DNA from: an uncultured Bacteroidales bacterium
GTDB taxonomy: Bacteria > Bacteroidota > Bacteroidia > Bacteroidales > Paludibacteraceae
DNA length: 64,000 nucleotides
Assembly (NCBI GenBank): GCA_900321605.1
Contig: ONWR01000003.1
Span: 20,153-84,152 of the forward strand
Direction of reading: 5' to 3'
Shown piece after piece: positions 15,994 to 53,746 of this stretch. The stretch's first letter is position 1, and each line of letters begins with the position of its first letter. The notes beneath the pieces were generated by a model. The model saw only the letters and a list, made by a program, of their open reading frames with translations. It was not told the origin of the DNA and made no database searches. The position numbers were made by a program, and so were the translations under genes.

Positions 15994-18225
15994 ATGGAAA
16001 AGAAAAATTGTTTTTGTCTGCTTTTTGTAGCCTTTTTACTGTTAAAAGGAACATGCGCCTACGCGCAAAAGGTTTTTATTGACAGCGTTTATTATACGCT
16101 GGACAACACAGCCATGACAGCACAAATAGCGGTACAGAGTAGTAGTACCGCCGTTGGTGACATCGTTATTAATGACACAGTGACGTACGAGGGCGCGAAT
16201 TACGCGGTTACGAGTATGGCAGACGATGCTTTTGCCTATTGCAATCAACTGACATCTATCGTATTGCCTCAAACCCTGCGTAATTTAGGTAAAAATGCTT
16301 TTCTGAGCTGCACGAGGCTTACCTCCTGTATCATTCCGGACAGTACGATCACGGAGATTCCGTTTGAGGCGTTCTTGAAAGCAGGACTCATTGAGTTCCG
16401 CGTGCCGGAAGGCGTGACATATATCGAGCAACGTTCGTTTGAGCAGATGCCCAACTTGCTGCGCATACACCTTGCTAATTCGGTGAAGTCTGTAAGTCCG
16501 TGGGCATTCTATATATTAGACGCGCTTCAAGATCCCATTTACAACGACAGCATGTTTGTGTTGATGCCGATGAATTATCAAGGTGCCTATACGATACCGA
16601 CGGGCATTCAGGCTATATGCAGTAGTGCTTTCTACGGATGTACAAAAATTACGAGCCTTACCATACCGGAAGGCGTGAAGCGTATTGAACACTACGGGCT
16701 GATGTTCAGTCTCAATGCTGTCATTAAAACGCTCCATCTACCGGCTTCGTTGGAATATGTTACTCCAGGGGCGATTTTTGGCGGATCATTACGGAAAATC
16801 TCTGTTGCTGAAGGCAACACGCACTACACCACTTGGAACAACATGCTTATGACTATCAACATGGATACCGTAATATGTTGTCCGGCGGCAATAAATGCCG
16901 CTTACACTTTGCCGGAAAGTGTCGTGCATGTTGCTGCTAGTGCTTTCTCTGTTTCCGCAGTTGATCTGACCATGACCAACGTGCGCTCTATCGGCGAATA
17001 CGCTTTCGAGGCCAACAGCCTTGGGAAGTATGACAGCAACAGACATTATGTCATACCTGAAACGGTGGAAGAAATAGGCGACGAGGCATTCTACCGCTCT
17101 TATTCCATGGAGCAGGTAACGATACCTTCCTCGCTTAAACAGATGGGTGAACAGGTATTTGCTGATAGTCCGAAGCTCAAGAAAGCAATCATCAATAGTC
17201 CCATGATCGGTAAAGGACAATTCCGAATCTGCAATAATCTGGAAATCATTGAGATAGGTGACAGTCTCAGAGAGATAGGCGCTTATGCTTTCCATAAATG
17301 TCCCGCACTATGGTACATCCGGATGCCGAAAGCCAACGCGCATTTCCGCGCGATAGACGGGGTGCTCTATTCGGCAGACACGACGGCGTTGGCGCTCTAT
17401 CCGTGCAAGCATGACGGAGAGGAGTTCGTGCTACCGGAAGAAGTAAACACCTTGCGTTCCTCTTCGCTCAGAGCGGTGAAGCTCCGTAAGCTGGTATTGC
17501 CGAAAGGTCTGAGTCTAATAGAGAACGAGTTGTTCGGCGGCTATTACTTGGGTAACGATGACACACCGCTGCTTGATACCATTGTGGCTCCGATGATGTC
17601 TGTTCCAGCGGCACAAAGTAATTCGTTCAATCTTCTTAACCAAGCACAAACGGTGCTTTTAGTACCTTGTGACTCGCTTGCGGAGATCTATCGTGCCAAC
17701 AGCATCTGGAGGGGCTTTAACATCCAAGTGGACAGTACACTTCTGGAGCTGCCGGAAAAAGAGCAGGAAGTAGGGACGCAACCCGACGAGCACAGTGTGC
17801 AGTTCACATGGCCGGCCGTGGAAGGAGCCACATACTATACTCTCATCATCTGGGCGAATGAAGAGCGCACGGAGAAGATTTGTACGCTGACGTTCAACTC
17901 CATGGGACAGCTCGTTGAGATCGACTTCTCCAAGCACGCACCTGTACGTCGGGCGATGAACACCGCTGCTTCCTTCTCGTTCCGTTACAACGGTTTGAGT
18001 GAGGGCACCGACTATTGGTTCACGATGACAGCCTCCGATGATAACAACAATGAACTCTATTCCGCATCCGGTTCATTCAAAACACTTGGTGAAACTGGGA
18101 CTACAACGTATTTAGACCAAATCCCGAGTGACCAAGTACAATGCACAAAGGCGCTGCGCGACGGACAAATCTATATAATGTACAAAGGGACAATGTACAA
18201 TGTACAAGGAAACCGGATAAAATAA
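15994..18225 (+). CDS. BspA-like leucine-rich repeat surface protein
   Basis: A 743-aa secreted protein. The signal peptide (CFCLLFVAFLLLKGTCAYA) is followed by LRR_5-type repeats of the form aFxxcxxLtsixLPxslxxIgxxAF, for example AFAYCNQLTSIVLPQTLRNL, to about residue 590. A fibronectin-III-like domain follows (about 600-700, VQFTWPAVEGATYYTL). The C-terminal tail ends KALRDGQIYIMYKGTMYNVQG, a motif shared with other proteins here. BspA-type proteins mediate adhesion to host or other bacteria. The second ATG (15994) is chosen because it aligns with the start of the next gene, whose signal peptide is nearly the same at DNA level. The next gene begins 20 bp downstream. Confidence 0.85.
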   Translation: MEKKNCFCLLFVAFLLLKGTCAYAQKVFIDSVYYTLDNTAMTAQIAVQSSSTAVGDIVINDTVTYEGANYAVTSMADDAFAYCNQLTSIVLPQTLRNLGKNAFLSCTRLTSCIIPDSTITEIPFEAFLKAGLIEFRVPEGVTYIEQRSFEQMPNLLRIHLANSVKSVSPWAFYILDALQDPIYNDSMFVLMPMNYQGAYTIPTGIQAICSSAFYGCTKITSLTIPEGVKRIEHYGLMFSLNAVIKTLHLPASLEYVTPGAIFGGSLRKISVAEGNTHYTTWNNMLMTINMDTVICCPAAINAAYTLPESVVHVAASAFSVSAVDLTMTNVRSIGEYAFEANSLGKYDSNRHYVIPETVEEIGDEAFYRSYSMEQVTIPSSLKQMGEQVFADSPKLKKAIINSPMIGKGQFRICNNLEIIEIGDSLREIGAYAFHKCPALWYIRMPKANAHFRAIDGVLYSADTTALALYPCKHDGEEFVLPEEVNTLRSSSLRAVKLRKLVLPKGLSLIENELFGGYYLGNDDTPLLDTIVAPMMSVPAAQSNSFNLLNQAQTVLLVPCDSLAEIYRANSIWRGFNIQVDSTLLELPEKEQEVGTQPDEHSVQFTWPAVEGATYYTLIIWANEERTEKICTLTFNSMGQLVEIDFSKHAPVRRAMNTAASFSFRYNGLSEGTDYWFTMTASDDNNNELYSASGSFKTLGETGTTTYLDQIPSDQVQCTKALRDGQIYIMYKGTMYNVQGNRIK

Positions 18226-18245
18226 TCATCAAAAATAGTAGAGTT

Positions 18246-21200
18246 ATGAAAACGAAAAATGTTTTTTGTCTGCTTTTTGTGGTGTTTTTGCTATTAAAAG
18301 GAACATGCGCCTACGCGACGCCTTGGAACGGCGCAACGACTGCACCGGGTCTGTTGGGAACGACCTATACCGTCACTACGGCGGAACAGCTGGCGTGGGT
18401 GGCGCAGCAGAGCCAGACGGATGACTTCGCCGGTTATACCATCCGTCTGGAAGCGGACATTGACCTCGGCGGCGCGCAGGAGACCCCTCCGAGCTGGACG
18501 CCGATAGGCAATGCGGCACACCCGTTTATGGGCGAACTGGACGGCAACAACCATGTGATATACAACCTGTATATCCTCAATTCGTTTCCTAGCGGTGCGG
18601 GGCTGTTTGCCGAGACAGGAGTCAGTGCGGTGATTCATCATACGGGTCTTGCGCAAGGTCAGATCATGACCGACGCGACGAGCAATGTGGGCGGTTTCAT
18701 CGGGATAAATCGCGGCTACCTGCACCACTGCTTCAACATGGCGCAGATCATTGCGCACAACGGGGACAATGTGGGTGGTCTGACGGGGACCAACTATGGT
18801 CAGATAGCGTACTCGTACAACACGGGTATCATCACCGACGCCAACAACCATGTAGGCGGTCTGGCAGGCGTGAACAAAGCCTCCGCGGTGCTGAACGAGT
18901 GTTACAACACGGGTTACTGCAAGGGTTCCGACCATGCCGGCGCCCTGTTCGGTCTGAACGAAGCGCCCGCTTCACAGCTCACCCGTGTCTATTTCGACCA
19001 GCAGGTCACCCGGACCTACGTCACCGGCTACGGAGTGAACGATGTGCTGGACAACACCCTCTATGCCGTGGAGAAAACAGGCACTTTCACTTCCAAGAAC
19101 AACCCCTTCAACCAACTGCCGGAGTGGAACATCATCCGTGACGGGTACTACCGCTATCCCCGTCTGCAATGTTTCGGAGACCATGAGGCGGCACTGGTGT
19201 CCGTCAACTGCATCCTACTGGACGCGGACAATCTGCCGGTCGAGCGCGCCGAAGGAGTGGGCGCTCCGAAGGAAGGCAACGCGCCGCGCAAGCAGTTCGC
19301 TCTGTTCGGTGCCAGCGGTTCCGTGTGGTTCTCGCCGAGCGACGAGGTCATCCATATACGGAGCAACAGCACGGCGGAGGTCGTCCGTCCGTGCGGCAAT
19401 CAGGAAGTGATCCTCACGGTCACGGAAGGCAGTACCACCAAGCAGATTTACACCATCGTCAAAGGCTATGAGAAGTTCGACGCCGGCAGGATGGAGGGCG
19501 TGAAGACTGCCTGCTGGCGAGAGGAGACCAAACTGATCTCCGCCAACCATGACGGCAAGGAACCCTTGGGCGGCAAGGATGACGAACAGGGCGGCGTGTA
19601 CGGCTACCAGTACATGATTATCCGCGACACGGTGGTCTATGACGAACACATGAACCCCGTATCCTATACGCCGATGGACACGTTCTATATGGAGCACAAG
19701 CCATACAGCAACTGGAACATGCCGACAGATGTCTCCGGAACGTACGCTTTCAGGCGCTACACTCATGACTACCAGTGCAAGACGGACTGGACGGAGTCGC
19801 CCGGACGGGTCTATATGACGGTTCTCGGTGATTTCGACGCCGGCAAACTGTACGATAAACCCGACACGCTGTACGGCGTACTGCCCATCACGTTCACCAT
19901 AGAGAGCGAACGGGACGCGTCGGGCGGTGCAGGGATATTCAGCTACTTGTGGAAGATGAAAACGGAAAAAGAGACAAAGAATCCGCTCTATATAGACGGC
20001 GTGCCGGTGAACACCGCGTCTTTCAACTTCACGTTCGAGCAACCGGGTACCTATGTGTTCACACGCCGCGCGAGCGATGCGATGTGCAGTACCAGCCCCA
20101 TCGAGTCGGAATCGCCGCATACCGTGGTGGTGTACGAGGCGATTGACCCTGGGGCGGTGGACTCGTTCGCCATGACCCTATGCAATCCGAAATACTATGG
20201 TTCCATCGAAGAAAAATCCCCTGTTTCGGGCGGTAACGGCAATTATATTTACCGCTGGACATGCAACGGCGAAGCCATGCTGCACAGCGACACCGTCAGC
20301 CTGCCGCTCAACGATTTTGTGATGACGAACGGCAGCAGGTATGTCTTCCGCCGTCAGGTGAAGGATGACAGCGGTCTCATGGACTGGCTCACTTCGGAGG
20401 GGGCGGTGACGCTGTTCGCGGACGGGCTGAGCGACTCCTGCATGGCGGTCTGCTCGCAGAAGAAGACCGTGAACGTGACGGTCTGCATGTCCGACCTGCC
20501 CTATACGGACACCTATACGTTCATAGACGGCCACGCGGAGACCTACACGCTGAGTGCGGACAACGAAACGGTGGTGATGCACGACCATACGATAGACGGC
20601 TGCCCGATGGAGGTGAGTATCGTCTGTCAGGCGTCCGCCGTTCCGGTGGTGGACATACAACCGGTGGTGGACCTCTGCCCGTCCGATTCCGCCCTGACCA
20701 TCCTTTTCGCCGTCCGCGAAGGTAAACCCGACCGATACGACCTTGTCTTCCCCACCGACGCACAGCAGGCAGGCTTTGTCTCCCGTACAGGAGAGACCCT
20801 TCCGGCAGACGGACGGATAGCTGTTCCGATGCCTCAGGGCGTGTCCGCAGGCACGTATTACATGTCCGTCGTCTTCTATGCCGGCAAAGGCAACTGGTCG
20901 TGCAAGAGTGAGACCTACTTCTTCCCTTTCACGCTGCTCACGGACGGTTTCGTGCACCGCAAGTGGAATGACGTGGTTTTCGTGGACAGCAGTGACAAGA
21001 ACTGTGAGCCGGATTGTGACGGCGACCTGCAATTCACTGCTTATCAATGGTACAAGGACGGGGAACGCGTAGAAGGAGCCACCGGGCAGTACTACCACGA
21101 GACAGGCGGTCTGAACGGGTTCTACCAGGTGGAGATGACCGGTTCGGACGGCACCGTCTATCGCAGCTGCGTGTATGAGATGCGTCCGACGGAAGGAATA

Positions 21201-21317
21201 GACCAAGTACAAAGGGACGATGTACGATGTACGAAGGTCATCCGGGACGGACATCTGTATTTGATGGTCGGGGAGAAAATCTATAGTGTTTTCGGACAGG
21301 AAATCAAAGGCTTATGA
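18246..21317 (+). CDS. Large secreted adhesin-like protein with GLUG repeats
   Basis: A 1023-aa protein. The signal peptide (VFCLLFVVFLLLKGTCAYA) nearly duplicates that of the upstream gene. Residues about 45-250 have GLUG-type repeats (VGGFIGINRGYLHHCFN, VGGLTGTNYGQIAYSYNTG, VGGLAGVNKASAVLNECYNTG), a beta-solenoid repeat found in surface proteins. The long middle part has Ig/PKD-like sandwiches. The C-terminal block has KWNDVVFVD and YQWYKDGERVEGA, shared with two other large proteins here, and then a short tail with VIRDGHLYLMVGEKIYSVFG. The gene is visibly richer in G+C than the LRR genes around it. Its stop overlaps the next start (ATGA), so it is coupled to the OmpA-type barrel gene. Confidence 0.8.
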   Translation: MKTKNVFCLLFVVFLLLKGTCAYATPWNGATTAPGLLGTTYTVTTAEQLAWVAQQSQTDDFAGYTIRLEADIDLGGAQETPPSWTPIGNAAHPFMGELDGNNHVIYNLYILNSFPSGAGLFAETGVSAVIHHTGLAQGQIMTDATSNVGGFIGINRGYLHHCFNMAQIIAHNGDNVGGLTGTNYGQIAYSYNTGIITDANNHVGGLAGVNKASAVLNECYNTGYCKGSDHAGALFGLNEAPASQLTRVYFDQQVTRTYVTGYGVNDVLDNTLYAVEKTGTFTSKNNPFNQLPEWNIIRDGYYRYPRLQCFGDHEAALVSVNCILLDADNLPVERAEGVGAPKEGNAPRKQFALFGASGSVWFSPSDEVIHIRSNSTAEVVRPCGNQEVILTVTEGSTTKQIYTIVKGYEKFDAGRMEGVKTACWREETKLISANHDGKEPLGGKDDEQGGVYGYQYMIIRDTVVYDEHMNPVSYTPMDTFYMEHKPYSNWNMPTDVSGTYAFRRYTHDYQCKTDWTESPGRVYMTVLGDFDAGKLYDKPDTLYGVLPITFTIESERDASGGAGIFSYLWKMKTEKETKNPLYIDGVPVNTASFNFTFEQPGTYVFTRRASDAMCSTSPIESESPHTVVVYEAIDPGAVDSFAMTLCNPKYYGSIEEKSPVSGGNGNYIYRWTCNGEAMLHSDTVSLPLNDFVMTNGSRYVFRRQVKDDSGLMDWLTSEGAVTLFADGLSDSCMAVCSQKKTVNVTVCMSDLPYTDTYTFIDGHAETYTLSADNETVVMHDHTIDGCPMEVSIVCQASAVPVVDIQPVVDLCPSDSALTILFAVREGKPDRYDLVFPTDAQQAGFVSRTGETLPADGRIAVPMPQGVSAGTYYMSVVFYAGKGNWSCKSETYFFPFTLLTDGFVHRKWNDVVFVDSSDKNCEPDCDGDLQFTAYQWYKDGERVEGATGQYYHETGGLNGFYQVEMTGSDGTVYRSCVYEMRPTEGIDQVQRDDVRCTKVIRDGHLYLMVGEKIYSVFGQEIKGL

Positions 21318-22696
21318 AACGGGTTGTTTATCTGATGACCGTATTGGTGGTCAGTTGCGGGCTGTACGCCCAAAAGCATTATATCGACCTGCACGCCGGA
21401 GTGGGTGTGGGCAGTTGGGGTTATACGCTCCAAGGCGGTTCTACACAGTTCGGAAACACCTATAGTGCCGGGGTGGGTTACACCTGGTTTTTCCATCCCT
21501 GTGTCGGTCTGCAGACCGGCGTACAGGCGGTGCGCCTCTCGTCCTACGGATCGCTGACGGAGGGCGTCGAGTACGGTCCGCTGACGGATTATCAGGGGGA
21601 ACAGTACATGCACCGCGTTGCGCTCTCCGGCTGGCGCGAACAGCAGGAAGGCTGGCTGCTTGAGGTGCCGCTTGGTCTGCGTTTCCGTTATTTTGCAGAC
21701 GAGGAAAGCCGCGTCGGACTGCATGCTGCTTTCGGTGCTTCTCTGGCAGTGCCGGTTCATGCCGTGTACCGCGTTTCGGGAACAGCCGCCCATTCGGCAT
21801 GGTACGAATGGTGGCAGCTGGAACTGCATGACCTGCCCGGACGCTTCGGAACGGAGGACGTGAAACAGGAGGAGAGTTGCAAGTCACTCCTCGCCACTTT
21901 CAATGCCATGGCGTACGCGGAGTTGGGTATGGCTTTCCGTGCCGGACGGCGCACGCAGATTGTCCTTGCCGCCTATGCGCAGTACGGCATTACGGACTTT
22001 TCCAAGGTCAAAAAAGAGGAGCGCACGACTTTGGGTTTTGCCAACAAGGAGAACGGTTATACGTTCATGCCGGAGTACCATGGACTGCTCGGAACGGACT
22101 GCGTTGCGGCGATGCGTCCTTGGACGGCTGGGCTCAAAATCGGACTGTCCGTATGGCCCGGCAAGACGGACGAGCAGAAAAAGAAGCAGCTGAAGAAACT
22201 GGCGGAGCAGTATCCGAAACTGATGCCGGTCCGCGAACAACACGACACCGTCTATCTACGCGACACCGTGTATATGCGTGACACCCTTGTGCTGCATGAC
22301 ACCGCCGTGTTGAGCGATATTGAGCAAAAGATGCCGATGACGCGCGAACAGGCGCAGCTGGACGAACTGCTGTCCTCCGCCGTCATCTGGTTCCATTTCG
22401 ACGAGTACAAGCCTGTCCTCGAACCGGCTTATATCCTCGATTCCGTGGCGGCGATGATGCAGCGTCATCCGAGCTTGCGTATTCAGGTGAACGGACATGC
22501 GTGCAGCATAGGCACCGAGCGTTACAACAAACGCCTTGCCTTGCGCCGTGCGCAGGCCGTGGCGGCGCTGCTGGAACAGAAAATGGTCAGCAGAAAACGC
22601 ATGAAAGTGGCATCCTACGGCGCGTCACAGCCCTACCGATATAATCCGAAGCACTCCTATGCCAAGGACCGCCGCGTGGAGATCATTCCGGAATAA
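21314..22696 (+). CDS. OmpA family outer-membrane protein with N-terminal beta-barrel
   Basis: A 460-aa protein with a signal peptide (about residues 1-19). The N-terminal region, starting KHYIDLHAGVGVGSWGY, has alternating aromatic strands of an outer-membrane beta-barrel with the motif YTWFFHPCVGLQTG. A linker with D-T-V repeats (RDTVYMRDTLVLHDT) precedes an OmpA C-terminal peptidoglycan-binding domain (about 345-460, with IQVNGHACSIGTERYNKRLA and the final RRVEIIPE). It therefore probably ties the outer membrane to peptidoglycan. It is translationally coupled to the adhesin at 18246 and closely resembles the protein at 34916, which also neighbours a large secreted protein. A role in anchoring or displaying the adhesin is inferred. 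Confidence 0.85.
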   Translation: MKRVVYLMTVLVVSCGLYAQKHYIDLHAGVGVGSWGYTLQGGSTQFGNTYSAGVGYTWFFHPCVGLQTGVQAVRLSSYGSLTEGVEYGPLTDYQGEQYMHRVALSGWREQQEGWLLEVPLGLRFRYFADEESRVGLHAAFGASLAVPVHAVYRVSGTAAHSAWYEWWQLELHDLPGRFGTEDVKQEESCKSLLATFNAMAYAELGMAFRAGRRTQIVLAAYAQYGITDFSKVKKEERTTLGFANKENGYTFMPEYHGLLGTDCVAAMRPWTAGLKIGLSVWPGKTDEQKKKQLKKLAEQYPKLMPVREQHDTVYLRDTVYMRDTLVLHDTAVLSDIEQKMPMTREQAQLDELLSSAVIWFHFDEYKPVLEPAYILDSVAAMMQRHPSLRIQVNGHACSIGTERYNKRLALRRAQAVAALLEQKMVSRKRMKVASYGASQPYRYNPKHSYAKDRRVEIIPE

Positions 22697-22737
22697 GTAC
22701 AAAATATGCCAAAATGAACGGAAATGATTTGCATATA

Positions 22738-22769
22738 TCAAAAAAAAGTATTATATTTGCAGCGTAGTT
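22738..22769 (+). promoter_or_regulatory. Core promoter for the second LRR operon
   Basis: TTTG (22738-22741), spacer CATATATC plus A8 (20 nt), TATATTTG (22762-22769). The leader to the first LRR gene is about 300 nt and contains an orphan tail-coding fragment. Confidence 0.85.
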
Positions 22770-22856
22770 TTTTCGAGAACGTAAAAAACGCGTGTAATTT
22801 ACTGAAAATAAAATGAATAGGACGATTTAAGAAAGAACAAAGTCTAGGATGATATA

Positions 22857-23069
22857 GTGGTGATACACATCCGGGGACGCAATGCAGAAGAAAAAGCAGT
22901 AGAAAGCACCCACGGTTCGTTCCGCACAAAAGGAGAGGGCGAAAGTACAGAAGGCCTCATGGATGTACAAGGGGACGATGTACAATGTACAAAGGTGCTT
23001 CGCGACGGACAGATCTATATAATGTACAAAGGGACAATGTACAATGTACAAGGAAACCAGATAAAATAA
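22857..23069 (+). pseudogene. Orphan C-terminal tail fragment of a secreted LRR protein
   Basis: An open frame of 70 codons with no ATG start (GTG 22857 at best) and no signal peptide. Its last 38 residues are almost identical to the C-terminal tail of the next gene (KVLRDGQIYIMYKGTMYNVQG plus NQIK). The first half is low-complexity and matches nothing here. The DNA from about 22959 to 23121, covering this tail, the intergenic bases and the next signal peptide, is nearly the same as 25029-25191. This looks like the remnant of a deleted or duplicated surface-protein gene, though it could be transcribed from the promoter at 22738. Confidence 0.7.
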
Positions 23070-23121
23070 TATACGATCATGAAAACGAAAGTATCTATTA
23101 TTCTTGTTTGCCTGATTTGGA
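22959..23121 (+). repeat. Direct repeat, copy 1 (tail + signal peptide cassette)
   Basis: About 160 bp nearly identical to 25029-25191, offset exactly 2070 bp. It spans a tail-coding end, a 9-bp gap and the first 14 codons of the following LRR gene. It contains the palindromic word TTGTACATTGTAC. Confidence 0.85.
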
Positions 23122-25139
23122 TGGCAAGCAGCATGTACGCAACGGTATATACCGGCGTGTGCGGAGAGCATCTGACATGGACACTGAATTCCGAGGACAG
23201 CACTCTGGTCATCAGCGGACGTGGAGACATGTCGGGTTGGACGTTCGGAGATTACGCTTCGCGTGTTTATATCAAGCACATTGTTTTTCCCGAGGGAATG
23301 ACATCCGTTTATGGCAGAGCCTTTAGTGATTGTCCTGCGTTGGAGTCGGTGACTCTGCCGGACAGTGTTGTAACCATCGGTATCAGAGCTTTTGAAAGCT
23401 GTGGGAGTTTGAGAGTGGCGCGTTTGGGCAAAAATGTCCGGACGATAGAGCAAGAGGCCTTCAGAAATTGCTCCGCGTTAAAGCACCTGGAACTATCGGA
23501 TAGTCTAGAATCCATCGGCGTTAGGGCCTTCAATAATTGCGTATCTCTTACGGACACCGTTGTTTTTCCGGAAACGCTGTCTTCGATCGGTGGAAATGCT
23601 TTCGGAGGCGACAGAATAGGCGGTTCCGTTGCCGTATGGAAAGCGCGTCATTGCCAGACCGGAGAAATAGCAACACCGATGAAACACTTCGCGCATGTTG
23701 TTTTTGGAGACAAAGTGGAGTATATCGGTCCGAACTTGTTTTCCAATGCGTTATTGGACACGGTTATACTACCGGCGAGTATAGATACAATAGAGCACCA
23801 TGCATTCTATGCAAGCGGGTTAAGCTATATCGAATTGCCACCATCACTTGTGTATATCGGAAGTGAAGCATTTTACAGAAACCTGTCGTTGAAATCGCTC
23901 GTTATTCCTGAAAATATAACCTCTATTCCGAGCTCCATGTGTGGCTGGTGTAGCGCTCTTGAATCAGTCACATTACCAGACGGGCTTCAAATAATCGGCG
24001 AATTCGCTTTTTCCAACTGCTCAGTTTTAAAGCGTTGCGATATTCCCACAACGGTTCAAACCATCGGAAATGGTGCTTTTTGTTATTGCTCTTCCTTGCC
24101 ATCTGTCACCCTGCCAGAAGGCATGACCAGTATTGCAGATATTGCTTTCCAAAGCTGTAATATGCTAAAAGAGGTTCATTTCCCTCAATCTCTGACTACC
24201 ATTGGTGACGGTTCTTTTCAAGGGTGTGCCATAGACTCGTTAGGTTTGCCGCCATCCCTCAACACTATCGGCGAATATGCATTCTTAAATCTGGTCAATT
24301 TGAAAGAACTGATTATTCCTGACGAAGTGCGACAGATTAAGTCCCGTGCCTTTGAAGGTTGTTCGGGGTTAAAGAAAGTGGTCATCGGTAAAAAGACGGC
24401 AATGATCGATGCCGATGCATTCAAGAATGACTATATGCTCATAGAGATCCGTAGCCGTGCGGCGTACCCGCCGTTAGTACAGAGTTATACTTTTGCAGGC
24501 GTGCCTGATAGCACCTGGCTTTTCGTGCCGGTTCAGAGTATTGCCGCTTACGCGGAGGATCCTGTTTGGGGACGATTCCGGATGCCGAAAGAAGAGGAGA
24601 TCAACTATGTGACCGTCGATGCCGAAGAGACCACGGCAAACTTTGTCTGGCCGACGGATAGCACCGCTTCTTCCTACCAGATAGATATCTACAAGGACGG
24701 CGCAGTGTTCTGTAAACTGACGTTGGGCAACAGAGGACAGCTGTTAGGAATCTCATTCAACGCCCCGTCGCGGAGCAATCCGGGAAGCACCATTCCGGTT
24801 TCGCTTTCGTTCAATGTAACCGGTTTGGATGAAGCCACGCGGTATAACTACGTACTCTCCGCGTTGAGCGCAAACGGCACACCTATTCACGTCTATACCG
24901 GAGCTTTCGCGACAACCGGCTATTCGGGTGATAAACCCGTTGGTGACGGTCAGGAGGTCATCCCGACACCGCCTGTCATTCCCGCGGATCCTGAAGCATC
25001 AGAAACACCCACCGGAGTGGAAGGTCTCACGGATGTACAAGGAGACGATGTACAATGTACAAAGGTGCTTCGCGACGGACAACTCTATTTGATGTACAAA
25101 GGGACGATGTACAATGTACAAGGAAATCAACTGAAATAA
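23079..25139 (+). CDS. BspA-like leucine-rich repeat surface protein
   Basis: A 686-aa secreted protein. The signal peptide (about 1-22, SIILVCLIWMASSMYA) is followed by LRR_5 repeats from about residue 60 to 470 (for example AFSDCPALESVTLPDSVVTI), a fibronectin-III-like domain (about 520-620, with SYQIDIYKDGAVFCKLTLGN), a Pro-rich linker (GDGQEVIPTPPVIPADPEAS) and the tail KVLRDGQLYLMYKGTMYNVQG. The protein is flanked at DNA level by the 160-bp direct repeat, so homologous recombination could delete or duplicate it precisely. It is 9 bp upstream of a close paralogue. Function is probably adhesion or matrix binding; the ligand is unknown. Confidence 0.87.
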   Translation: MKTKVSIILVCLIWMASSMYATVYTGVCGEHLTWTLNSEDSTLVISGRGDMSGWTFGDYASRVYIKHIVFPEGMTSVYGRAFSDCPALESVTLPDSVVTIGIRAFESCGSLRVARLGKNVRTIEQEAFRNCSALKHLELSDSLESIGVRAFNNCVSLTDTVVFPETLSSIGGNAFGGDRIGGSVAVWKARHCQTGEIATPMKHFAHVVFGDKVEYIGPNLFSNALLDTVILPASIDTIEHHAFYASGLSYIELPPSLVYIGSEAFYRNLSLKSLVIPENITSIPSSMCGWCSALESVTLPDGLQIIGEFAFSNCSVLKRCDIPTTVQTIGNGAFCYCSSLPSVTLPEGMTSIADIAFQSCNMLKEVHFPQSLTTIGDGSFQGCAIDSLGLPPSLNTIGEYAFLNLVNLKELIIPDEVRQIKSRAFEGCSGLKKVVIGKKTAMIDADAFKNDYMLIEIRSRAAYPPLVQSYTFAGVPDSTWLFVPVQSIAAYAEDPVWGRFRMPKEEEINYVTVDAEETTANFVWPTDSTASSYQIDIYKDGAVFCKLTLGNRGQLLGISFNAPSRSNPGSTIPVSLSFNVTGLDEATRYNYVLSALSANGTPIHVYTGAFATTGYSGDKPVGDGQEVIPTPPVIPADPEASETPTGVEGLTDVQGDDVQCTKVLRDGQLYLMYKGTMYNVQGNQLK

Positions 25140-25191
25140 TATACGATCATGAAAACGAAAGTATCTATTATTCTTGTTTGCCTGACGATGA
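25029..25191 (+). repeat. Direct repeat, copy 2 (tail + signal peptide cassette)
   Basis: Second copy of the repeat at 22959-23121. It joins the end of the first LRR gene to the start of the second. Confidence 0.85.
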
Positions 25192-27225: not shown

Positions 27226-27394
27226 TTAATCAATAAGGAATCATTAAGGAATATATAAGGAATCACTAAAGATTTAAACGTTCTGTATTATATACTATGT
27301 ATATAATACTATATAGATCCATGTATAAAAATTTCTCATGGCAGAAATGGCATAAATGGCAAAAGTTTTGCCATTTCTGCCACTTTTGCCAATG
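27226..27394 (+). repeat. Structured repeat element, copy 1
   Basis: The 329-bp gap between genes is filled by this element and a promoter. In order: degenerate AAGGAATATAT units, a hairpin GTATTATATA-CTATG-TATATAATAC (27284-27308), TAGATCCATGTATAAAAATTTCTCATGG, read as a linker, and a GGCAGAAATGG/ATTTCTGCC palindromic block ending near 27390. An inverted copy of about 93% identity by eye is at 52917-53142. No ORF is inside. Confidence 0.85.
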
Positions 27395-27543: not shown

Positions 27544-30500
27544 ATGAAACGTTTCTGGAGCATAGTTTTTGGGATATTGCTTGCGATGCCGGTGGTGGCG
27601 CAGGAGGAGCCGCTGTTTACGGACGGAACGCTTCTCTTCCGTGAGGATTTCGGCGGTAATGACCCGAACGATCCGGAAGTGATTTCTGATGCCAACGCTG
27701 CGCGGGCGGCTGTACTTGGCATGTCCTCTGGTTATATTCCCTGTTTGAGCCGGACAAGCGGGATGAGTAGCGGAAAGTTTTTGGTAACCAAACAAGGATA
27801 CCAAAATGGGATTCAGTGGCATATCATGGATGACCACACTTATCCGAACGACAAGACAAAAGGCTATCTCTTGCAGATAGACGGACGAGGGGATGATGCG
27901 CCGTTCTATACCACCACGATAGAAGATCTCTGCCCCGGTTCGCGTCTCACCTTCTCCGCTTATGTGGCGAATGTCATGACTTGGGGACATTATACGAACC
28001 CTAACAGGCATGATATCTATCCGCGGATGAAGTTTGTGCTGACCGATCCCTCTTCGGGGACCGAACTGGCAACCTACGACACAGGTGATATACCATTTGA
28101 CTCCGCATCCATCGGAGATAATTCGTGTTGGCAGAATTCTGCACATTGGCGGCTCATCGGTATGAACTTCACCGTGCCGAACGGCACATATCGCGTGAAA
28201 CTCACTATTTATAATAATGTAGCGCAGAATGGCAGCGGTAATGACTTTGTGTTGGATGATATTGAGATTCACCTCTGCACACCACCGGTGACGATAGAAG
28301 GAGAGACGGAAGTGTGTGAAAACACAGCGACCACCCTCACCGCTAACTTCAATAACGATGGTACGTTTGCAGAGCCATTAGCTTATAAATGGTGGCACTC
28401 TTTAGATAGCGTCACATGGTCGGAAATGTCCGGTTTCAACGGAGAAATTCTCACTTTCAATGCCGTACAAAAAAACGACTCGGGTTGGTATAAAGTTGCC
28501 GTTTCCGGCGACGGGAATATTGAGAATATCAACTGCCGTGCAATGAGTGAACCTTTCCGACTGCGCGTGAGCGAATGTGCTGAGAATCTTTGCATCGACG
28601 GAACGCTTCTCTTCCGTGAGGATTTCGGCGGTAATGACCCGTCCGATCCGGATGTTAGCATGGTGAATGTGCCGGGCATGAGCTCGCAGTACTACAACTC
28701 CGGCAACAGCTTGGGTAGCGGTAATTATACGATTCGCAAGGAGGGTTGGTTAAATGGCATCCAATGGCATCGGCAGGATGACCATACCTATCCCGACGAT
28801 AAGACCCGAGGCTATCTCTTGGAGGTGGACGGGATGGGAGGCGCGGAGCCGTTCTACAGCACGACAATAGACGGACTTTGTGCCGGAAGCAAACTGACCT
28901 TCAGCGCCTATGTGGTCAATGCGCACTATGCAGGACAGCTCGATTATTTCGGCGGCAGATACATCTATCCGCGAATGAAATTTGTGCTCAAAGACCCGAC
29001 TACCGGCAGTATTTTAGCCGAGAAATCTACCGGTGACATTCAGCCCGATTGGCGTTATGGTACGCCGGAGACTTGGAAATATGCCCGCGAGAACAGCCTG
29101 TCTGCGGAGTGGCAGTTGATCGGTATGAACTTTATTGTGCCGGATGGTATCGAGTCGATTCAGATGTTTATCTACAATGATGTTGAGCGAAACGGCACCG
29201 GAAATGATTTTGCATTAGATGACATCGAGATCCACCTGTGCGCACCACCGGTGGCGATAGAAGGAGAGACGGAAGTGTGTGAAAACGTGGCAACAACCCT
29301 GACCGCCAACTTGACCAACGATGGTACGTTTGCGGAACCTTTAGCTTATAAATGGTGGCACTCTTTAGATAGTGTCACATGGTCGGAAATGTCCGGTTTC
29401 AACGGAGAAATCCTCACTTTCAGCACCATCCAGAAAGCCGACTCGGGATGGTATAAAGTGGCTGTCTCCAGCGCAGAAAACATCGAGAGCGAGAACTGCC
29501 GTGCGATGAGTGAACCCTTCCGACTGAGAGTGAACAAATGTACGGAGGATCTCTGCACCGACGGCATACTCCTTTTCCGAGAGGACTTCGGCGGCAATGA
29601 TCCGTCCGATCCGAGGGTAGGTACCAACCCCGTGCCGGGCATGAGTTATACGCAGGCAACCAATGACGTTTTCCGTACTATGGGTTCCGGCAAATATATT
29701 GTCACCAAATCCGGTTACTGTAACGGCGATACCACCGGATGGTCTTTGCCCGGTGCGGACCAATCCACCTATCGCTCCCAATGGTACATTCAGGATGACC
29801 ATACCTATCCGAACGATTACTCTCGTGGGTATTTTATGGAGATAGACGGTAGCGGGGGTAATCAGCAGTTCTACCAAACGGAGATAAGCGGTCTTTGCGA
29901 AGGTATCGAATTGACTTTCAGCGCCTATGTGGCAAATGTGTTCACATGGTTTCAATACGATTGGTACACCCGAAACAGGGGGCCGGTTATTGCTCCATGT
30001 CTGAAGTTCGTGCTGACGAATCCACAGACAGGTGAGACCTTGGTGGAAAAGAACACGCAGCAGATTCCGTTTGCGGAGGACTTATCCGTTAAGACCGATT
30101 GGCAGTATTCATCACCATGGTATCTGGTGGGTATGAATTTCATTGTACCGACCGGTATACCCGCTATCCGGCTTACTATTTACAACAATGTGACCAATGG
30201 TAACGGTAATGATTTTGCGTTAGACGATATAGAGATTCGTCTTTGCATGACGCCGGACACGATACGGACGGACACGACGGTGTGCGACACGCTTCAGCAG
30301 ATTGCATGGCGCGGAAAGGAGTATGCCGTTGCGGCTACTCTGCGGGATACGGTATATAGTCACTGCGGGTTTGATAGTATTTACTATGAGTTACACGTAG
30401 CCACGAAGCATTGCGAGCCGCCTTGCCCGGAGTTGATCACTATTACGGTGGATACGGTGGTTTGCGACACGCTGATGCCGTACCGATGGCGGGATACGCT

Positions 30501-31344
30501 GTTTACAGAACCTGCTACCTATGAGATTCTGTATAAGAACGAACGGGGCTGTGACAGTCTGCTCCGTGTACTGACTCTTAATACCCAGATCTGCTGTCCG
30601 AAGATGGTGACTATTACCGCTGACACCATGGTTTGTGACACGTTGATGCCGTATCGCTGGCGAGACACGCTGTTTACAGAACCTGCTACCTATGAGATTC
30701 TGTATAAGAACGAACGGGGCTGTGACAGTCTGCTCCGTTTACTGACTTTAGGTACACAAGTGTGTTGTCCCAATGTGGTGACTATCACTGCGGACACCAC
30801 GGTCTGCGACACCTTGATGCCTTTTACGTGGACGATAGGCGGTCAGACTTTTGTGTTTGAACAAGCAGAGACGCAAGAACGGGAAATGCCACACCCGAAA
30901 TGGACGGAGTGTACCGGTACGAACTATGTGCTGCGTCTGGATACGTTCCATTGCGAGAAATTGTGGCAGATCATCGTCAATAAATACAACTGGCAGCTGT
31001 TGTTGGACAATGTGAGTTTGTCTCGTTTCTTTCCCCAAAACGCTGCGCGTACGTATCAATGGTACAAGAACGAAGCCCCGATACCCGGTGCTAACGGCGA
31101 TGATTACTCCGAGCAGAACGAGCTCTGCGGACGATTCCAACTGCGGGTAGAGATGGATGATGGTCAGACGATCTGGTCGAATCTCTTGGAGATAGGAAAA
31201 CCGCAGGTGGAAGAGCCGGTTCGCGTGCGGATCTACGACAGTCATGGTGTACCGGTGCAGGAAAACCAAGTGTCACACGGAGTGTATCTCTACCGCTATG
31301 AGCAGGGAGATCGGAAATGGACGGAGAAGAGACTGATACCATGA
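27544..31344 (+). CDS. Large repeat-containing T9SS-type surface protein
   Basis: A 1266-aa protein with a signal peptide (about 1-20). Three homologous blocks of about 330 residues each open with LLFREDFGGNDP and contain a lectin/jelly-roll-like region ending in GNDF.LDDIEIHLC; between them are Ig-like domains (ETEVCEN.ATTLTANF). Near residue 920 begins an array of 57-residue repeats with CDTLMPYRWRDTLFTEPAT, two of them nearly identical in DNA (171-bp period). A YQWYKNEAPIPGA Ig-like block and a T9SS type A-like tail (VYLYRYEQGDRKWTEKRLIP) close the protein. It is probably exported through the T9SS and attached to the surface. The stop overlaps the next start (ATGA). Confidence 0.82.
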   Translation: MKRFWSIVFGILLAMPVVAQEEPLFTDGTLLFREDFGGNDPNDPEVISDANAARAAVLGMSSGYIPCLSRTSGMSSGKFLVTKQGYQNGIQWHIMDDHTYPNDKTKGYLLQIDGRGDDAPFYTTTIEDLCPGSRLTFSAYVANVMTWGHYTNPNRHDIYPRMKFVLTDPSSGTELATYDTGDIPFDSASIGDNSCWQNSAHWRLIGMNFTVPNGTYRVKLTIYNNVAQNGSGNDFVLDDIEIHLCTPPVTIEGETEVCENTATTLTANFNNDGTFAEPLAYKWWHSLDSVTWSEMSGFNGEILTFNAVQKNDSGWYKVAVSGDGNIENINCRAMSEPFRLRVSECAENLCIDGTLLFREDFGGNDPSDPDVSMVNVPGMSSQYYNSGNSLGSGNYTIRKEGWLNGIQWHRQDDHTYPDDKTRGYLLEVDGMGGAEPFYSTTIDGLCAGSKLTFSAYVVNAHYAGQLDYFGGRYIYPRMKFVLKDPTTGSILAEKSTGDIQPDWRYGTPETWKYARENSLSAEWQLIGMNFIVPDGIESIQMFIYNDVERNGTGNDFALDDIEIHLCAPPVAIEGETEVCENVATTLTANLTNDGTFAEPLAYKWWHSLDSVTWSEMSGFNGEILTFSTIQKADSGWYKVAVSSAENIESENCRAMSEPFRLRVNKCTEDLCTDGILLFREDFGGNDPSDPRVGTNPVPGMSYTQATNDVFRTMGSGKYIVTKSGYCNGDTTGWSLPGADQSTYRSQWYIQDDHTYPNDYSRGYFMEIDGSGGNQQFYQTEISGLCEGIELTFSAYVANVFTWFQYDWYTRNRGPVIAPCLKFVLTNPQTGETLVEKNTQQIPFAEDLSVKTDWQYSSPWYLVGMNFIVPTGIPAIRLTIYNNVTNGNGNDFALDDIEIRLCMTPDTIRTDTTVCDTLQQIAWRGKEYAVAATLRDTVYSHCGFDSIYYELHVATKHCEPPCPELITITVDTVVCDTLMPYRWRDTLFTEPATYEILYKNERGCDSLLRVLTLNTQICCPKMVTITADTMVCDTLMPYRWRDTLFTEPATYEILYKNERGCDSLLRLLTLGTQVCCPNVVTITADTTVCDTLMPFTWTIGGQTFVFEQAETQEREMPHPKWTECTGTNYVLRLDTFHCEKLWQIIVNKYNWQLLLDNVSLSRFFPQNAARTYQWYKNEAPIPGANGDDYSEQNELCGRFQLRVEMDDGQTIWSNLLEIGKPQVEEPVRVRIYDSHGVPVQENQVSHGVYLYRYEQGDRKWTEKRLIP
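30461..30771 (+). repeat. 171-bp tandem coding repeat in the surface protein gene
   Basis: Two nearly identical units starting near 30461 and 30632, each encoding 57 residues with paired cysteines. A long central stretch is identical between the units. A third, diverged unit follows. Confidence 0.85.
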
Positions 31345-47155: not shown

Positions 47156-47599
47156 TTACTCAGCTACTACATTCAGCTTGATATCAGCTTTTACCTCACG
47201 ATGGAGACGAGCCTGTGCGGTGTACTCACCTACTTGCTTGATCGGCTCAGCGATGGTGATCACCTTCTTGTCGATCAGGATCTCCTGTGCTTTGAGAGCG
47301 TCAGAGATGTTCTGAGTGGTTACTGTACCGAAGATCTTACCGTCCTCGTTAGCTTTTACTTTTACCTCGATTATGGTCTCAGCCAACTTAGCCTCCAGTG
47401 CCTGAGCATCTGCGAGGATCTTAGCTGCTTTGTGAGCCTGCTGTTTGAGGTTCTCAGCCAGCTGTTTGCGGTTACTCTCGTTTGCGATGATAGCAATCTT
47501 CTGCGGCAGCAGGTAGTTACGTCCGTAGCCGTCACGTACTTTTACGATGTCGTTCTTGAAACCGAGGTTTGCAAGGTCTTGAATCAGAATTACTTCCAT
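47156..47599 (-). CDS. rplI: 50S ribosomal protein bL9
   Basis: A 147-aa ribosomal protein with MEVILIQDLANLGFKNDIV and DGYGRNYLLPQKIA in the N-terminal rRNA-binding domain, a long connecting helix and a C-terminal domain. Length is normal. It is the third gene of the rpsF-rpsR-rplI string, with spacing of 33 bp from rpsR. Confidence 0.98.
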   Translation of the reverse strand: MEVILIQDLANLGFKNDIVKVRDGYGRNYLLPQKIAIIANESNRKQLAENLKQQAHKAAKILADAQALEAKLAETIIEVKVKANEDGKIFGTVTTQNISDALKAQEILIDKKVITIAEPIKQVGEYTAQARLHREVKADIKLNVVAE

Positions 47600-47632
47600 A
47601 CTTTTTTCCTTTCAATTAAGTCGGTTAAACAA

Positions 47633-47899
47633 TTATTTCATCATGTCGGTTACGTAAGGCAGCAGAGCCAAGTGGCGTGCTTTCTTAACGGCCTGAGCAA
47701 CTTTACGCTGGAACTTCAACGAAGTACCGGTAATACGACGAGGCAGGATCTTACCTTGCTCGTTCAGGAACTTCTTGAGGAACTCAGGATCTTTGTAATC
47801 GATGTACTTGATACCGCTCTTTTTGAAACGGCAGTACTTTTTCTTCTTCTGATCCGTGCCTTGCGGAGTCAGATAGCGGATTTCGTCATTCTGTGCCAT
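47633..47899 (-). CDS. rpsR: 30S ribosomal protein bS18
   Basis: An 88-aa ribosomal protein with [20 protein letters not shown] and [20 protein letters not shown]. It pairs with bS6 in the ribosome. It follows rpsF after three bases and precedes rplI, the standard bacterial order. Confidence 0.98.
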
Positions 47900-47902
47900 A
47901 AC

Positions 47903-48244
47903 TTAAGCCTCCTTTTTAAAGTTGTTACGACGCTTCTCAGCGTACTCGAATGCGTACTTGTCAAGACGCGTTGTCAGGAAGCGGATTACACGCTCGTCAC
48001 GACGGAACTCGGTCTCGAGGGTAGCGATTACTGCGGGTTCTGCATCAAACTGAAGAATGAAATAGAAACCCGAATTTTTACCTTGGATAGGGTAAGCCAA
48101 CTGCTTCAAACCCCACTCCTCACGGTTCAAAATGGTACCGCCATTCGATGTGAGAAGATTCTCGAATTTTTCTACTGCCTCCTTTGTCTGCGGTTCAGAC
48201 AAAACGGGTGTCAGAACGAAGGCAGTTTCATAATGATTTACCAT
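47903..48244 (-). CDS. rpsF: 30S ribosomal protein bS6
   Basis: A 113-aa ribosomal protein. [15 protein letters not shown] at the N-terminus and [20 protein letters not shown] in the middle are diagnostic. First gene of the rpsF-rpsR-rplI cluster, driven by the promoter at 48346. Confidence 0.98.
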
Positions 48245-48290
48245 TGTAGTAAATTGTTAATTTAATTTGTTAATAATAGTTTACTTTTTT

Positions 48291-48321
48291 CGTGATCACG
48301 TGATTACGTAATTACGTAATT
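48291..48321. repeat. Palindromic phrase repeat in the rpsF leader
   Basis: CGTGATCACG followed by overlapping ATTACGTAAT palindromes. The words are related to the palindrome at 45985-46006. Confidence 0.75.
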
Positions 48322-48345
48322 TATCGGTCTGCGACAAAAAGCCTG

Positions 48346-48376
48346 CAAAGATACTGCTTTTTTTTGATATAGCCAA
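48346..48376 (-). promoter_or_regulatory. Core promoter for rpsF-rpsR-rplI
   Basis: Minus strand: TTG (48376-48374), 20-nt spacer with GCTATATC and A8, TATCTTTG (48353-48346). The leader is about 100 nt. Confidence 0.85.
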
Positions 48377-48431
48377 GAAAAACAGCTAAAAAATGCTTTT
48401 TTTGTGCATTTTGTAAGGTAAATTGCTCATT

Positions 48432-50450
48432 TTAGCCGTTTATCGCTTGCAATTTGTTCTGCATCTCTAACATCTCATCCCTCAGCCGAGCAGCCATTTC
48501 AAAGTCCGTAGCTTTAGCAGCAGCAAGCATTTGTTTGCGTTTGGTATCAATCGCTTTCTCCAGTTTCTTGGCGTCCATCTTCTGCCAATCAGCCGTCTTC
48601 CAACTCTCACGGATAGCCGCCTCCACACGTTGTTTCTCCGCCTCCGGATCTTTGTAAAGCGAAGCCAAAGCCGAGGTGTTGATCTCTTTCTTAATCGGCG
48701 TCGGCGTGATCCCGTGCTCTTCGTTGTACCGCATCTGAATAGCGCGGCGGCGGTTCGTCTCGTTGATGGTTGCCTGCATAGCCGGAGTGATCTTATCGCC
48801 GTACAGCAACGCCTTGCCGTGTACATGACGAGCCGCACGACCTACTGTCTGCGTCAGACTTCGTTGGTCTCTCAGGAAACCCGTCTTATCGGCATCCAAA
48901 ATCGCTACCAGACTGACTTCCGGCAGGTCGAGACCTTCGCGAAGCAGGTTCACACCCACCAACACATCGTATTCACCTCTTCGCAAGTCCTCCATGATCT
49001 TCACGCGCTCAATCGTGTCGATGTCGCTGTGGATATAAGCCGACTTGATGCCGTAACGACGCAGGTACTCGTCCAGCTCCTCCGCCATGCGTTTGGTGAG
49101 GGTAGTAACGAGGCACCTCTCGTTGCGATGGATACGCGTCTTGATCTCGTCCATGAGATCGTCCACTTGGTTCTCCGTCGGACGCACCTCGATCTCCGGA
49201 TCAAGCAGACCCGTCGGACGGATAAGCTGGTCAATAACGATACCCTCACTCCGCTCTAACTCATATTCGTCCGGCGTTGCAGACACATAAATGGTCTGCC
49301 CCGTTTTCTGCTCAAACTCATCGAACTTCAGCGGTCGGTTGTCACGGGCTGCCGGCAACCGGAAACCGTAGGTCACAAGGTTGTCCTTACGCGCTTTATC
49401 ACCGCCGTACATGCCGCGTATCTGCGGAACGGTCACGTGGCTCTCATCAATCACGAGCAGCATGTCTTTCGGGAAATAATCCAACAGACAATAAGGCGGC
49501 GTGCCTTCTTCCCGACCGTCGAAATAACGGCTGTAGTTCTCCACACCGGAGCAGTAACCAAGCTCGTCCAACATCTCCAAATCGTACTTCACGCGCTCCT
49601 CGATACGCTTTGCGTATAACTCTTCACCAATATTGGTGAAGTACTCTATCTGTTTCGCCAAATCCGCTTTGATCTGCTCTTTGGCAGCAGCAATCCGTTC
49701 AGCACTCGTCAAGAAAATCGTTGCCGGAGAGAGGTTGTATTGCTCAAACTCCTCCAACACCTGTCCGCTGATCGGATCAACGGTCAGAATGGCGTCTATC
49801 TCATTGCCGAAGAACTCAATGCGTACCAAGTAATCCGCGTACGCCAACGCAATATCGATCGTGTCGCCTTTCACGCGGAAGCGTCCGCGCGCGAGTTCTA
49901 TATCATTACGCACGTATTGCGCGCTCACGAGCTGTTTGAGCAACGCGTCCATCGGGATCTCCATGCCCCGTTTGAGTTCGATGACGTTAGCCGTGAAGTC
50001 CTGCGGACTGCCCAAACCATATATACAACTGACCGATGAAACGATGATCACATCCTTTCGTCCGCTCAGTAGCGCCGCTACTGCACTCAGCCTCAACCGG
50101 TCGATCTCTTCGTTGATACTCAGGTCTTTCTCGATATACAGATCCGTACTCGGGATATACGCCTCAGGCTGATAGTAGTCGTAATAACTCACGAAATACT
50201 CCACCGCATTGTGCGGAAAGAACGCTTTCATCTCCGAGTATAACTGTGCCGCAAGGGTCTTGTTATGACTCATGATCAGCGTCGGGCGGTTCAGCTGCTG
50301 GATGACATTAGCGACCGTAAAAGTCTTACCGCTACCCGTCACACCGAGCAACACCTGTGCTTCTGCACCCGATTGCACACCTTCGACCAACGCCTTGATC
50401 GCTTCCGGCTGATCGCCTGTCGGTTTATATGGACTCTCTAATTGAAACAT
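48432..50450 (-). CDS. uvrB: Excinuclease ABC subunit B
   Basis: A 672-aa DNA-repair helicase of nucleotide excision repair, which works with UvrA and UvrC. Walker A is GVTGSGKT (about 38-45), with the family segments MSHNKTLAAQLYSEMK, the beta-hairpin region YYDYYQPEAYIP, DESHVTVPQI, the helicase motif VGRAARH and a C-terminal UVR motif (KKLEKAIDTKRKQMLAAAKA) that binds UvrC. Length is normal. The start ATG overlaps the stop of the SDR gene (ATGA), so the two are cotranscribed. Confidence 0.98.
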   Translation of the reverse strand: MFQLESPYKPTGDQPEAIKALVEGVQSGAEAQVLLGVTGSGKTFTVANVIQQLNRPTLIMSHNKTLAAQLYSEMKAFFPHNAVEYFVSYYDYYQPEAYIPSTDLYIEKDLSINEEIDRLRLSAVAALLSGRKDVIIVSSVSCIYGLGSPQDFTANVIELKRGMEIPMDALLKQLVSAQYVRNDIELARGRFRVKGDTIDIALAYADYLVRIEFFGNEIDAILTVDPISGQVLEEFEQYNLSPATIFLTSAERIAAAKEQIKADLAKQIEYFTNIGEELYAKRIEERVKYDLEMLDELGYCSGVENYSRYFDGREEGTPPYCLLDYFPKDMLLVIDESHVTVPQIRGMYGGDKARKDNLVTYGFRLPAARDNRPLKFDEFEQKTGQTIYVSATPDEYELERSEGIVIDQLIRPTGLLDPEIEVRPTENQVDDLMDEIKTRIHRNERCLVTTLTKRMAEELDEYLRRYGIKSAYIHSDIDTIERVKIMEDLRRGEYDVLVGVNLLREGLDLPEVSLVAILDADKTGFLRDQRSLTQTVGRAARHVHGKALLYGDKITPAMQATINETNRRRAIQMRYNEEHGITPTPIKKEINTSALASLYKDPEAEKQRVEAAIRESWKTADWQKMDAKKLEKAIDTKRKQMLAAAKATDFEMAARLRDEMLEMQNKLQAING

Positions 50451-51229: not shown

Positions 51230-51274
51230 ATTCCTTTCACTTTTTCACCTTTCCCTTTTCACTAAAATTCTGCG

Positions 51275-51305
51275 CAAAGATACACTTTTTTTTGCACATG
51301 TGCAA
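51275..51305 (-). promoter_or_regulatory. Core promoter for SDR-uvrB
   Basis: Minus strand: TTG (51305-51303), spacer CACATGTGC plus an A-tract (20 nt), TATCTTTG (51282-51275). Confidence 0.82.
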
Positions 51306-51331
51306 GGAAAATTAAAAATATAGTAGAAAAA

Positions 51332-51363
51332 TTTGTGTATGTCATTCTTTTTTTGTAATTTTG
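51332..51363 (+). promoter_or_regulatory. Core promoter for the 51509 gene
   Basis: TTTG (51332-51335), spacer TGTATGTCATTC plus T-tract (20 nt), TAATTTTG (51356-51363). The roughly 140-nt leader has an ATAAGC/GCTTAT hairpin (51449-51462) and a 7-codon ATG frame at 51425. Confidence 0.8.
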
Positions 51364-52916: not shown

Positions 52917-53142
52917 CATTGGCAAAAGTGGCATAAATGGCAAAACTTTTGCCATTTCTGCCATTTATGCCATGAGAAATTTTTATACATGGATCTATAT
53001 AGTATTATATACTTTGTATATAATACAGAGCGTTTCAATCTTTAGTGATTCTTTATATATTCCTTATATATTCCTTATATATTCCTTATATATTCCTTAT
53101 ATATTCCTTATATATTCCTTATATATTGGTTAATCATTAACG
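52917..53142 (-). repeat. Structured repeat element, copy 2 (inverted)
   Basis: Reverse complement of the element at 27226-27394. The GGCAAAA block is at 52921-52972, the GTATTATATA hairpin at 53001-53025, and the AAGGAATATAT units at 53050-53127, here as about seven tandem 11-bp copies. It fills most of the 322-bp gap after the secreted protein; the rest is a CTCAAACC phrase repeat and a terminator. Confidence 0.85.
53050..53127 (+). repeat. 11-bp tandem array (TATATATTCCT)
   Basis: About seven almost perfect units at the distal end of repeat element copy 2. Copy 1 has only two to three degenerate units, so the array length varies between copies. Confidence 0.9.
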
Positions 53143-53159
53143 GTCCTATTAAGCACTCG

Positions 53160-53183
53160 GCTCAAACCCTCAAACCCTCAAAC
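53160..53183. repeat. CTCAAACC phrase repeat
   Basis: Three tandem CTCAAACC(C/A) words next to the rplS terminator. Confidence 0.75.
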
Positions 53184-53211
53184 AAGGACGAAGTCCCAAA
53201 CCTCCAAACAC

Positions 53212-53731: not shown

Positions 53732-53746
53732 TTTTTAGCGATTTTT

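Follow-up and report, generated by a model that had tools for sequence, protein, structure and literature searches.

A palindrome-plus-array family of small interspersed repeats, restricted to one genus of uncultured Paludibacteraceae among the genomes searched

The DNA analysed here (the window) is a stretch of 64,000 nucleotides from a 2.3-Mb assembly (G000) of an uncultured Bacteroidales bacterium. It holds two copies of a repeat block, copy 1 downstream of a gene encoding a BspA-type leucine-rich-repeat (LRR) protein and copy 2 downstream of a 468-aa gene (window 51509-52915) with no Pfam match, which is missing from the orthologous place in G125, the genome of RUG454 and the closest relative found. 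Elsewhere in the window, a 97-nt repeat (GACGATGTACAATGTACAAAGG...) occurs in four copies of 61-93% identity at the ends of adjacent large ORFs (18130-25140), and a 1266-aa ORF (27544-31344) has internal repeats every ~950-1020 nt, with weak matches to immunoglobulin-like domains below the Pfam cut-offs. The parts of the two copies are the following:

27226..27262, + strand: copy 1, 11-bp direct-repeat array, unit ATAAGGAATAT, about three units plus degenerate ones
27263..27284, + strand: copy 1, 22-bp spacer between array and palindrome, array boundary set by analogy (22-bp linker in 70/90 common-type elements)
27285..27309, no strand: copy 1, palindrome GTATTATATAC-TAT-GTATATAATAC, from the palindrome scan (G000:C25:47437-47461)
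27339..27391, no strand: copy 1, hairpin of 9-bp units (TGGCANAAA), a separate module
52920..52972, no strand: copy 2, hairpin of 9-bp units, directly past the ORF end at 52915
53002..53026, no strand: copy 2, palindrome GTATTATATAC-TTT-GTATATAATAC, core at G000:C25:73158-73174
53027..53048, - strand: copy 2, 22-bp spacer between palindrome and array, boundary by analogy
53049..53142, - strand: copy 2, 11-bp array of seven units, TTCCTTATATA on the + strand, end ...ATTAACGG; the relative G125 (L072) has 2-3 units at the same site

The initial annotation had described the block at 27226-27394 as recurring in reverse complement at 52917-53142, and this was confirmed: BLAST pairs 27233-27394 with 52917-53078 (162 nt, 93.2%, 243 bits), and the arms of the inverted repeat extend over 27228-27394 and 52917-53083 (167 nt, 92% complementary) around a spacer of 25,522 nt. 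When the window was shuffled five times in 2-base blocks, the best-scoring inverted match reached at most 31 nt, and one shuffle gave none. The fixed order of modules that had been reported was also located in both copies, comprising 11-bp units, an A/T palindrome and a GGCAAAA/TTTTGCC block, as was the inequality of the two arrays. Each copy had been said to start within ~12 bp of an upstream ORF end and to hold no ORF; the distances are 10 nt past 27215 for copy 1 and 1 nt past 52915 for copy 2, and none of the listed ORFs of at least 100 aa overlaps either copy. Relative to their upstream genes, the two copies have opposite orientations. An assembly artefact is an unlikely source of the pair, since related pieces lie on many G000 contigs and the palindrome is present in 32/101 genomes of the genus. 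The suggested inversion of the 25 kb between the copies is unsupported: in G125, a single contig carries the matches to window 47241-51335 and 53103-56937 on either side of the element, in unchanged order, making the right-hand junction collinear, while G125 contigs end at the left junction.

The block had been taken for a single structured element of 150-200 bp. Against its own assembly, copy 1 gives 38 BLAST matches, including itself, copy 2 at 93% and one of 70% over positions 1-166; the remainder are shorter pieces on many contigs, often stopping near position 92 or carrying the array, the palindrome or the hairpin alone. These partial pieces show that the window block is a mosaic in which three modules are combined: an array of 11-bp direct repeats, the palindrome GTATTATATAC-NNN-GTATATAATAC and a 9-bp-unit hairpin. 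The true family unit is the palindrome plus the array, whereas the GGCAAAA hairpin is a module of its own, which other copies lack or have replaced. In the window, two family elements are joined to 9-bp-unit hairpins in opposite orientation, and we take the symmetry of the pair to be incidental.

The GGCAAAA block is itself a member of a class of 9-bp-unit hairpins. Among 50 hairpins with arms of at least 20, a clear period was found in 25, and it was 9 in 20 of those. Seven unique 9-bp hairpins contain several different units (e.g., TGGCANAAA, TGACCGTTT, TTGACACTT and TGGCGATAT); the unit varies between copies while the arms remain complementary, as in both window blocks, L006 and L247. Between L006 and L247, a locus of a close relative, one such hairpin block has been swapped for another between conserved TATAAAAA boxes.

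Family elements are small (~100-125 bp) non-coding interspersed repeats. Each has a 25-bp palindrome whose arms measure 11 bp, joined in most cases by a linker of 22 bp to a series of 11-bp direct repeats, usually five in number. Two main array types were found among 132 unique palindromes analysed with their flanks, one with the unit TAAGTGCGTGA, which is the common type, and the other with the window's ATAAGGAATAT. The consensus of the common type, from 90 copies selected for at least three unit matches, shows a palindrome of 11+3+11, a 22-bp linker in 70/90 and five units in 70 copies (three in 1, four in 11, six in 8), the first unit being TAGTGCGTGAT in 79/90. Its left end is conserved (caac.ct.ca), and conservation is low beyond ~12 bp past the array. 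Palindrome, linker and array together hold an 11-bp step.

The limits of the palindrome were examined with a shorter core, TATATACNNNGTATATA, in 167 unique copies. Beyond this core, 140/167 pair exactly four further positions (99, 95, 88 and 92% paired), and the base pair just outside the arms is Watson-Crick in 4%, where a quarter would be expected by chance; the full 25-bp palindrome had served to fetch many of the loci, which partly builds in the high arm pairing but not the drop to 4%. Some arm pairs are altered on both sides (T-A to A-T), and the loops are TAT/ATA (101), TAC/GTA (42) or TTT/AAA (15). Of the repeat lags beside the palindrome, 11 scores best in 147/167, and in 107 of the 109 palindromes with at least 55% matches; 5/167 control draws from the same loci reach 55%, four of them at lag 11, and these draws may land in elements. 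The 167 copies are relatives, and the lag and pairing counts are not independent. Away from elements, there is no general excess of 11-bp arrays, with 17 of period 11 vs 58 of period 7 outside long ORFs (TRF, with 250 bp around palindromes masked).

With at most one mismatch, the palindrome occurs in 32/101 genomes of the genus, nine copies being in G000. The core is more widespread, with 520 copies in 59/101 (maximum 24 per genome) and five hits in all for the reversed control; it is absent from 42/101 and present as a single copy in 13. In 148 other genomes of the order, six have one core each and the control gives five hits, which is chance level; the one genome of another genus of the same family included there has none. 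The family is thus restricted to one genus among the genomes searched. Within that genus, three or more cores are found in 30/32 genomes whose best match to the window's rplS region is at least 86%, vs 11/57 below 86% (89 genomes with a match, G000 excluded). Downstream of rplS, relatives (L188, L190, L193, L195 and L199) bear AT palindromes of other sequence, e.g., ATAATATATATTAATATATATTAT. In named genomes, the palindrome was found in at least 117 stretches; the 80 matches listed are uncultured Bacteroidales or Paludibacteraceae MAGs, and their sample sources, where given, are rumen, omasum, reticulum and other gut. A viral or plasmid origin was rejected after exact scans of viral_contigs for the palindrome or array, and BLAST searches of one common-type copy against plasmids and of window copy 1 against phages, gave no match.

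Comparison of orthologous sites shows presence and absence of the element as well as variable copy number. In the sister pair G112/G111, site L339 contains 341 bp with palindrome and array in G112 vs 30 bp in G111, between flanks of 97 and 96% identity. This difference has blurred edges without a visible duplication, and it could be a deletion, gain and loss not being told apart. Four of the six perfect G112 palindromes occupy places common with G111, another (L342) matches a G111 locus only in pieces, and the sixth is L339. Conversely, the sixth G111 palindrome, which precedes a gene that we take to be ybeY, has no counterpart in the ybeY-holding stretch of G112. Empty sites in relatives, one of the checks proposed for the block, are seen for L339 and at the ybeY site surveyed below, whether by loss or by gain.

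The ybeY site lies between a Gate-domain gene and ybeY, and was matched in 95/101 genomes; among the best 30 of these, 27 had both flanks, and their states were labelled by eye. Seven carry this palindrome with an array, five a related palindrome with other 11-bp units and four an array alone; of the rest, five have at most 30 bp between the flank alignments, five are of other kinds and one is unreliable. The related palindromes are of the GTATATATAC type and are accompanied, in other species (L261, L271, L275 and L280), by arrays of GTATCCTATGG, also 11 bp. On the tree of the Gate-domain gene, in which 7/27 inner branches are well supported and the unreliable locus is scored as empty, the palindrome state requires five changes, vs a shuffled mean of 6.4 (as low in 64/500), so repeated gain at this site is not demonstrated.

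Two RUG454 loci are ~95-96% like G000 loci, and G125 holds the element at the places of G000 L002, L003, L005, L006 and L007, matched on one or both flanks (one for L003), which indicates that movement is slow at best. Neighbouring modules have been replaced between the two genomes at L003 and L006, and the neighbouring hairpin at L007 differs by one 9-bp unit. At L002, which is window copy 2, G125 has no 468-aa gene and 2-3 array units vs 7. The site of L004 was rejected as a clean empty site, as G125 carries a different array without palindrome there and a single flank is matched. For window copy 1, the G125 relative of gene 27544 is preceded by 455 bp that contain no palindrome, the other neighbour being on another contig. 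In G000, a composite occurs in three copies, which share ~430-550 bp at ~82-96%.

We propose, with a probability of about 0.5, that these elements are a new, genus-specific family of small interspersed repeats spread in trans by machinery encoded elsewhere. Such machinery would move or copy them after seeing the palindrome as a dimer site or an extruded hairpin, and the array, with about one unit per helical turn, would line up several copies of a protein along the same face of the helix. That a protein binds, that hairpins extrude and that elements move is inferred here. The earlier suggestion of a non-autonomous mobile element agrees with the several copies per genome, the location outside genes, both orientations and the filled and empty site in sister genomes, which support it short of proof. 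Searches for target duplications and for terminal inverted repeats gave neither. Over all pairs of offsets at the ends, the best exact inverted match of five bases is found in 4% of 93 elements; none of the 4-mer direct repeats stands out as a target duplication, the best at any offset pair occurring in 9% of the 93 vs 8% in a mixed-element control, and element ends are not exactly fixed, so that a variable duplication could escape. A search for a mobilising enzyme, covering Y1 transposases, identified none. Arrays are more alike within genomes than between them (0.70 vs 0.55; 21/2000 label permutations as high), although the size of the effect is rough, since 50 copies were compared without gaps and some were out of register; this likeness could instead come from gene conversion.

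The main rival to spread in trans is a resident site on the chromosome, maintained by selection, where protein binds in a nucleoid-organising or regulatory role, with a dimer on the palindrome, more subunits on the phased array, and gains and losses as ordinary site turnover. We consider it possible, although less probable. With one mismatch permitted, in 17 genomes listed in full, 2/74 palindromes have mismatched arms; these near-invariant arms look like selection for function rather than parasite decay, and count against a mobile parasite. The arms are identical in the seven species with this palindrome at the ybeY site, a class defined by the palindrome itself (the five related-palindrome species being counted apart), whereas the 11-bp units there differ between species, which a resident site does not readily explain. 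Pairing that ends with the arms (4% of 167) and five units in 70/90 copies also suit a binding site. Conversely, the absence of the core from 42/101 genomes and its single copy in 13 indicate that such a site is not needed across the whole genus, and the elements have no preferred gene arrangement. Spread in trans and resident binding alike predict a protein that recognises the palindrome and the phased 11-bp sites.

A further reading of the sequences, which we regard as unlikely, is that the palindrome is the substrate of an enzyme that loads at the phased array, cuts one base outside the 11-bp stem and can reinsert the 27-bp unit reversed. Just outside the arms, read in array orientation, 96 common-type copies have the flank bases A..C (53), G..T (20), T..T (14), A..A (7), G..C (1) and A..T (1). 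A..C is the reverse complement of G..T, and A..A that of T..T; free mixing would give 22 A..T, 12 G..C and 8 T..C, vs 1, 1 and 0 observed. Eight copies at the ybeY site are A..C (seven with loop TAT, TAC or TGT, one with GTA), and three are G..T with the reverse-complement loops GTA or ATA. Overall, the loop agrees with the foot for A..C and G..T (34:18 vs 6:13; Fisher p = 0.015, uncorrected for relatedness). The T..T and A..A loops do not mirror each other, which counts against a simple flip for those two classes. No flip is seen in the window's type (23/24 A..A, one A..G), and inspection of close ortholog pairs by eye revealed one-base loop changes and no flips. If this reading is true, carriers would possess a new hairpin-processing recombination system.

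It is more doubtful still that the elements are transcript ends or structured RNAs, acting as two-way terminators or processing hairpins. The palindrome folds into an RNA stem of 11 bp (-8.4 kcal/mol), the 9-bp-unit block makes a long stem on either strand, and both window copies lie close behind ORF ends. Nevertheless, the bidirectional transcript end raised by the initial annotation is not favoured by gene placement. Nearly all elements (122/123) lie outside ORFs of at least 110 aa, and two neighbouring ORFs overlap the palindrome side by 14 and 37 nt. The gene arrangements at 97 elements (48 tandem, 33 divergent and 16 convergent) show no difference, with any of three length cut-offs, from those at background gaps in the same loci. 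There is no convergent excess (16/97 vs 25/158 background gaps of at least 60 bp, p = 1.0), and the 33/97 elements between divergent genes do not fit a terminator. For the common type, the palindrome-side gene is directed away from the element in 53/86, a weak signal (p = 0.04, uncorrected). As for structured RNA, the arms of the main type retain their letters instead of covarying, and Rfam at gathering cut-offs matches no known family at the element; its matches in the window are two tRNAs alone.

Among 233 neighbouring ORFs, the largest cluster (15) consists of LRR proteins resembling the gene upstream of copy 1. A family of 140-145-aa proteins (L043:963-1400:-; L060:1673-2095:+) is encoded after the palindrome and array in the fetched loci, its gene following the element in 9/9 members of its cluster and in 16/16 matches over all loci. 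Two members have no Pfam match, and one has no match in plasmids or phages. The family was rejected as a partner of the element, as the loci were fetched by the palindrome and the association is biased.

A classical MITE or a RAYT-driven REP family is very improbable: the elements are small, palindromic and outside genes, with up to tens of copies and empty sites in relatives (G111 vs G112; ybeY site), but terminal inverted repeats and target duplications are undetected, and RAYT mobilisation was rejected because Y1 transposases, found in 11/101 genomes of the genus and not in G000 (E 1e-5), occur in 3 of the 44 genomes with at least three cores.

Many known families of small interspersed repeats in bacteria are linked to an IS end or a RAYT. 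The family described here was tied to neither in this analysis and keeps its 11-bp architecture over many species, posing the question of what recognises a palindrome with 11-bp arms beside about five helically phased sites. A gene-content search for the partner is feasible, since the one genus includes species rich in the palindrome and species free of it. In the literature searched, mostly open-access and including a review of MITEs (PMC10969869), no title or abstract start described the palindrome-plus-array family.

GTAG/CGTC-tagged REPs are short palindromes with small loops, the GTAG stems being 6-13 bp (PMC3733652). The palindrome here is also short and small-looped, but no GTAG or CGTC stands next to the stem in the consensus (left ...caac.ct.ca, right cAAcg), a phased array adjoins it, and 41/44 genomes with at least three cores have no Y1 transposase. 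In Streptococcus pneumoniae, BOX elements end in terminal inverted repeats, are flanked by target duplications and are over-represented between convergent genes (PMC3049150); none of these features was detected here. Both BOX and the present family are modular, small and probably non-autonomous, and they share exchangeable modules and a variable unit number (7 vs 2-3 at the same site).

Porphyromonas gingivalis is a member of Bacteroidales. Its BrickBuilt and MITE464 (PgRS) elements, with 19 copies in one strain, are always intergenic and have a narrow host range; their units are of 23 or 41 nt, and their terminal inverted repeats resemble those of the IS5 family (PMC4596501). The present family differs from them in its 11-bp units, its perfect palindrome at one end and the absence of detected terminal inverted repeats, and resembles them in its Bacteroidales host, intergenic location, tandem direct repeats within a small element and narrow host range.
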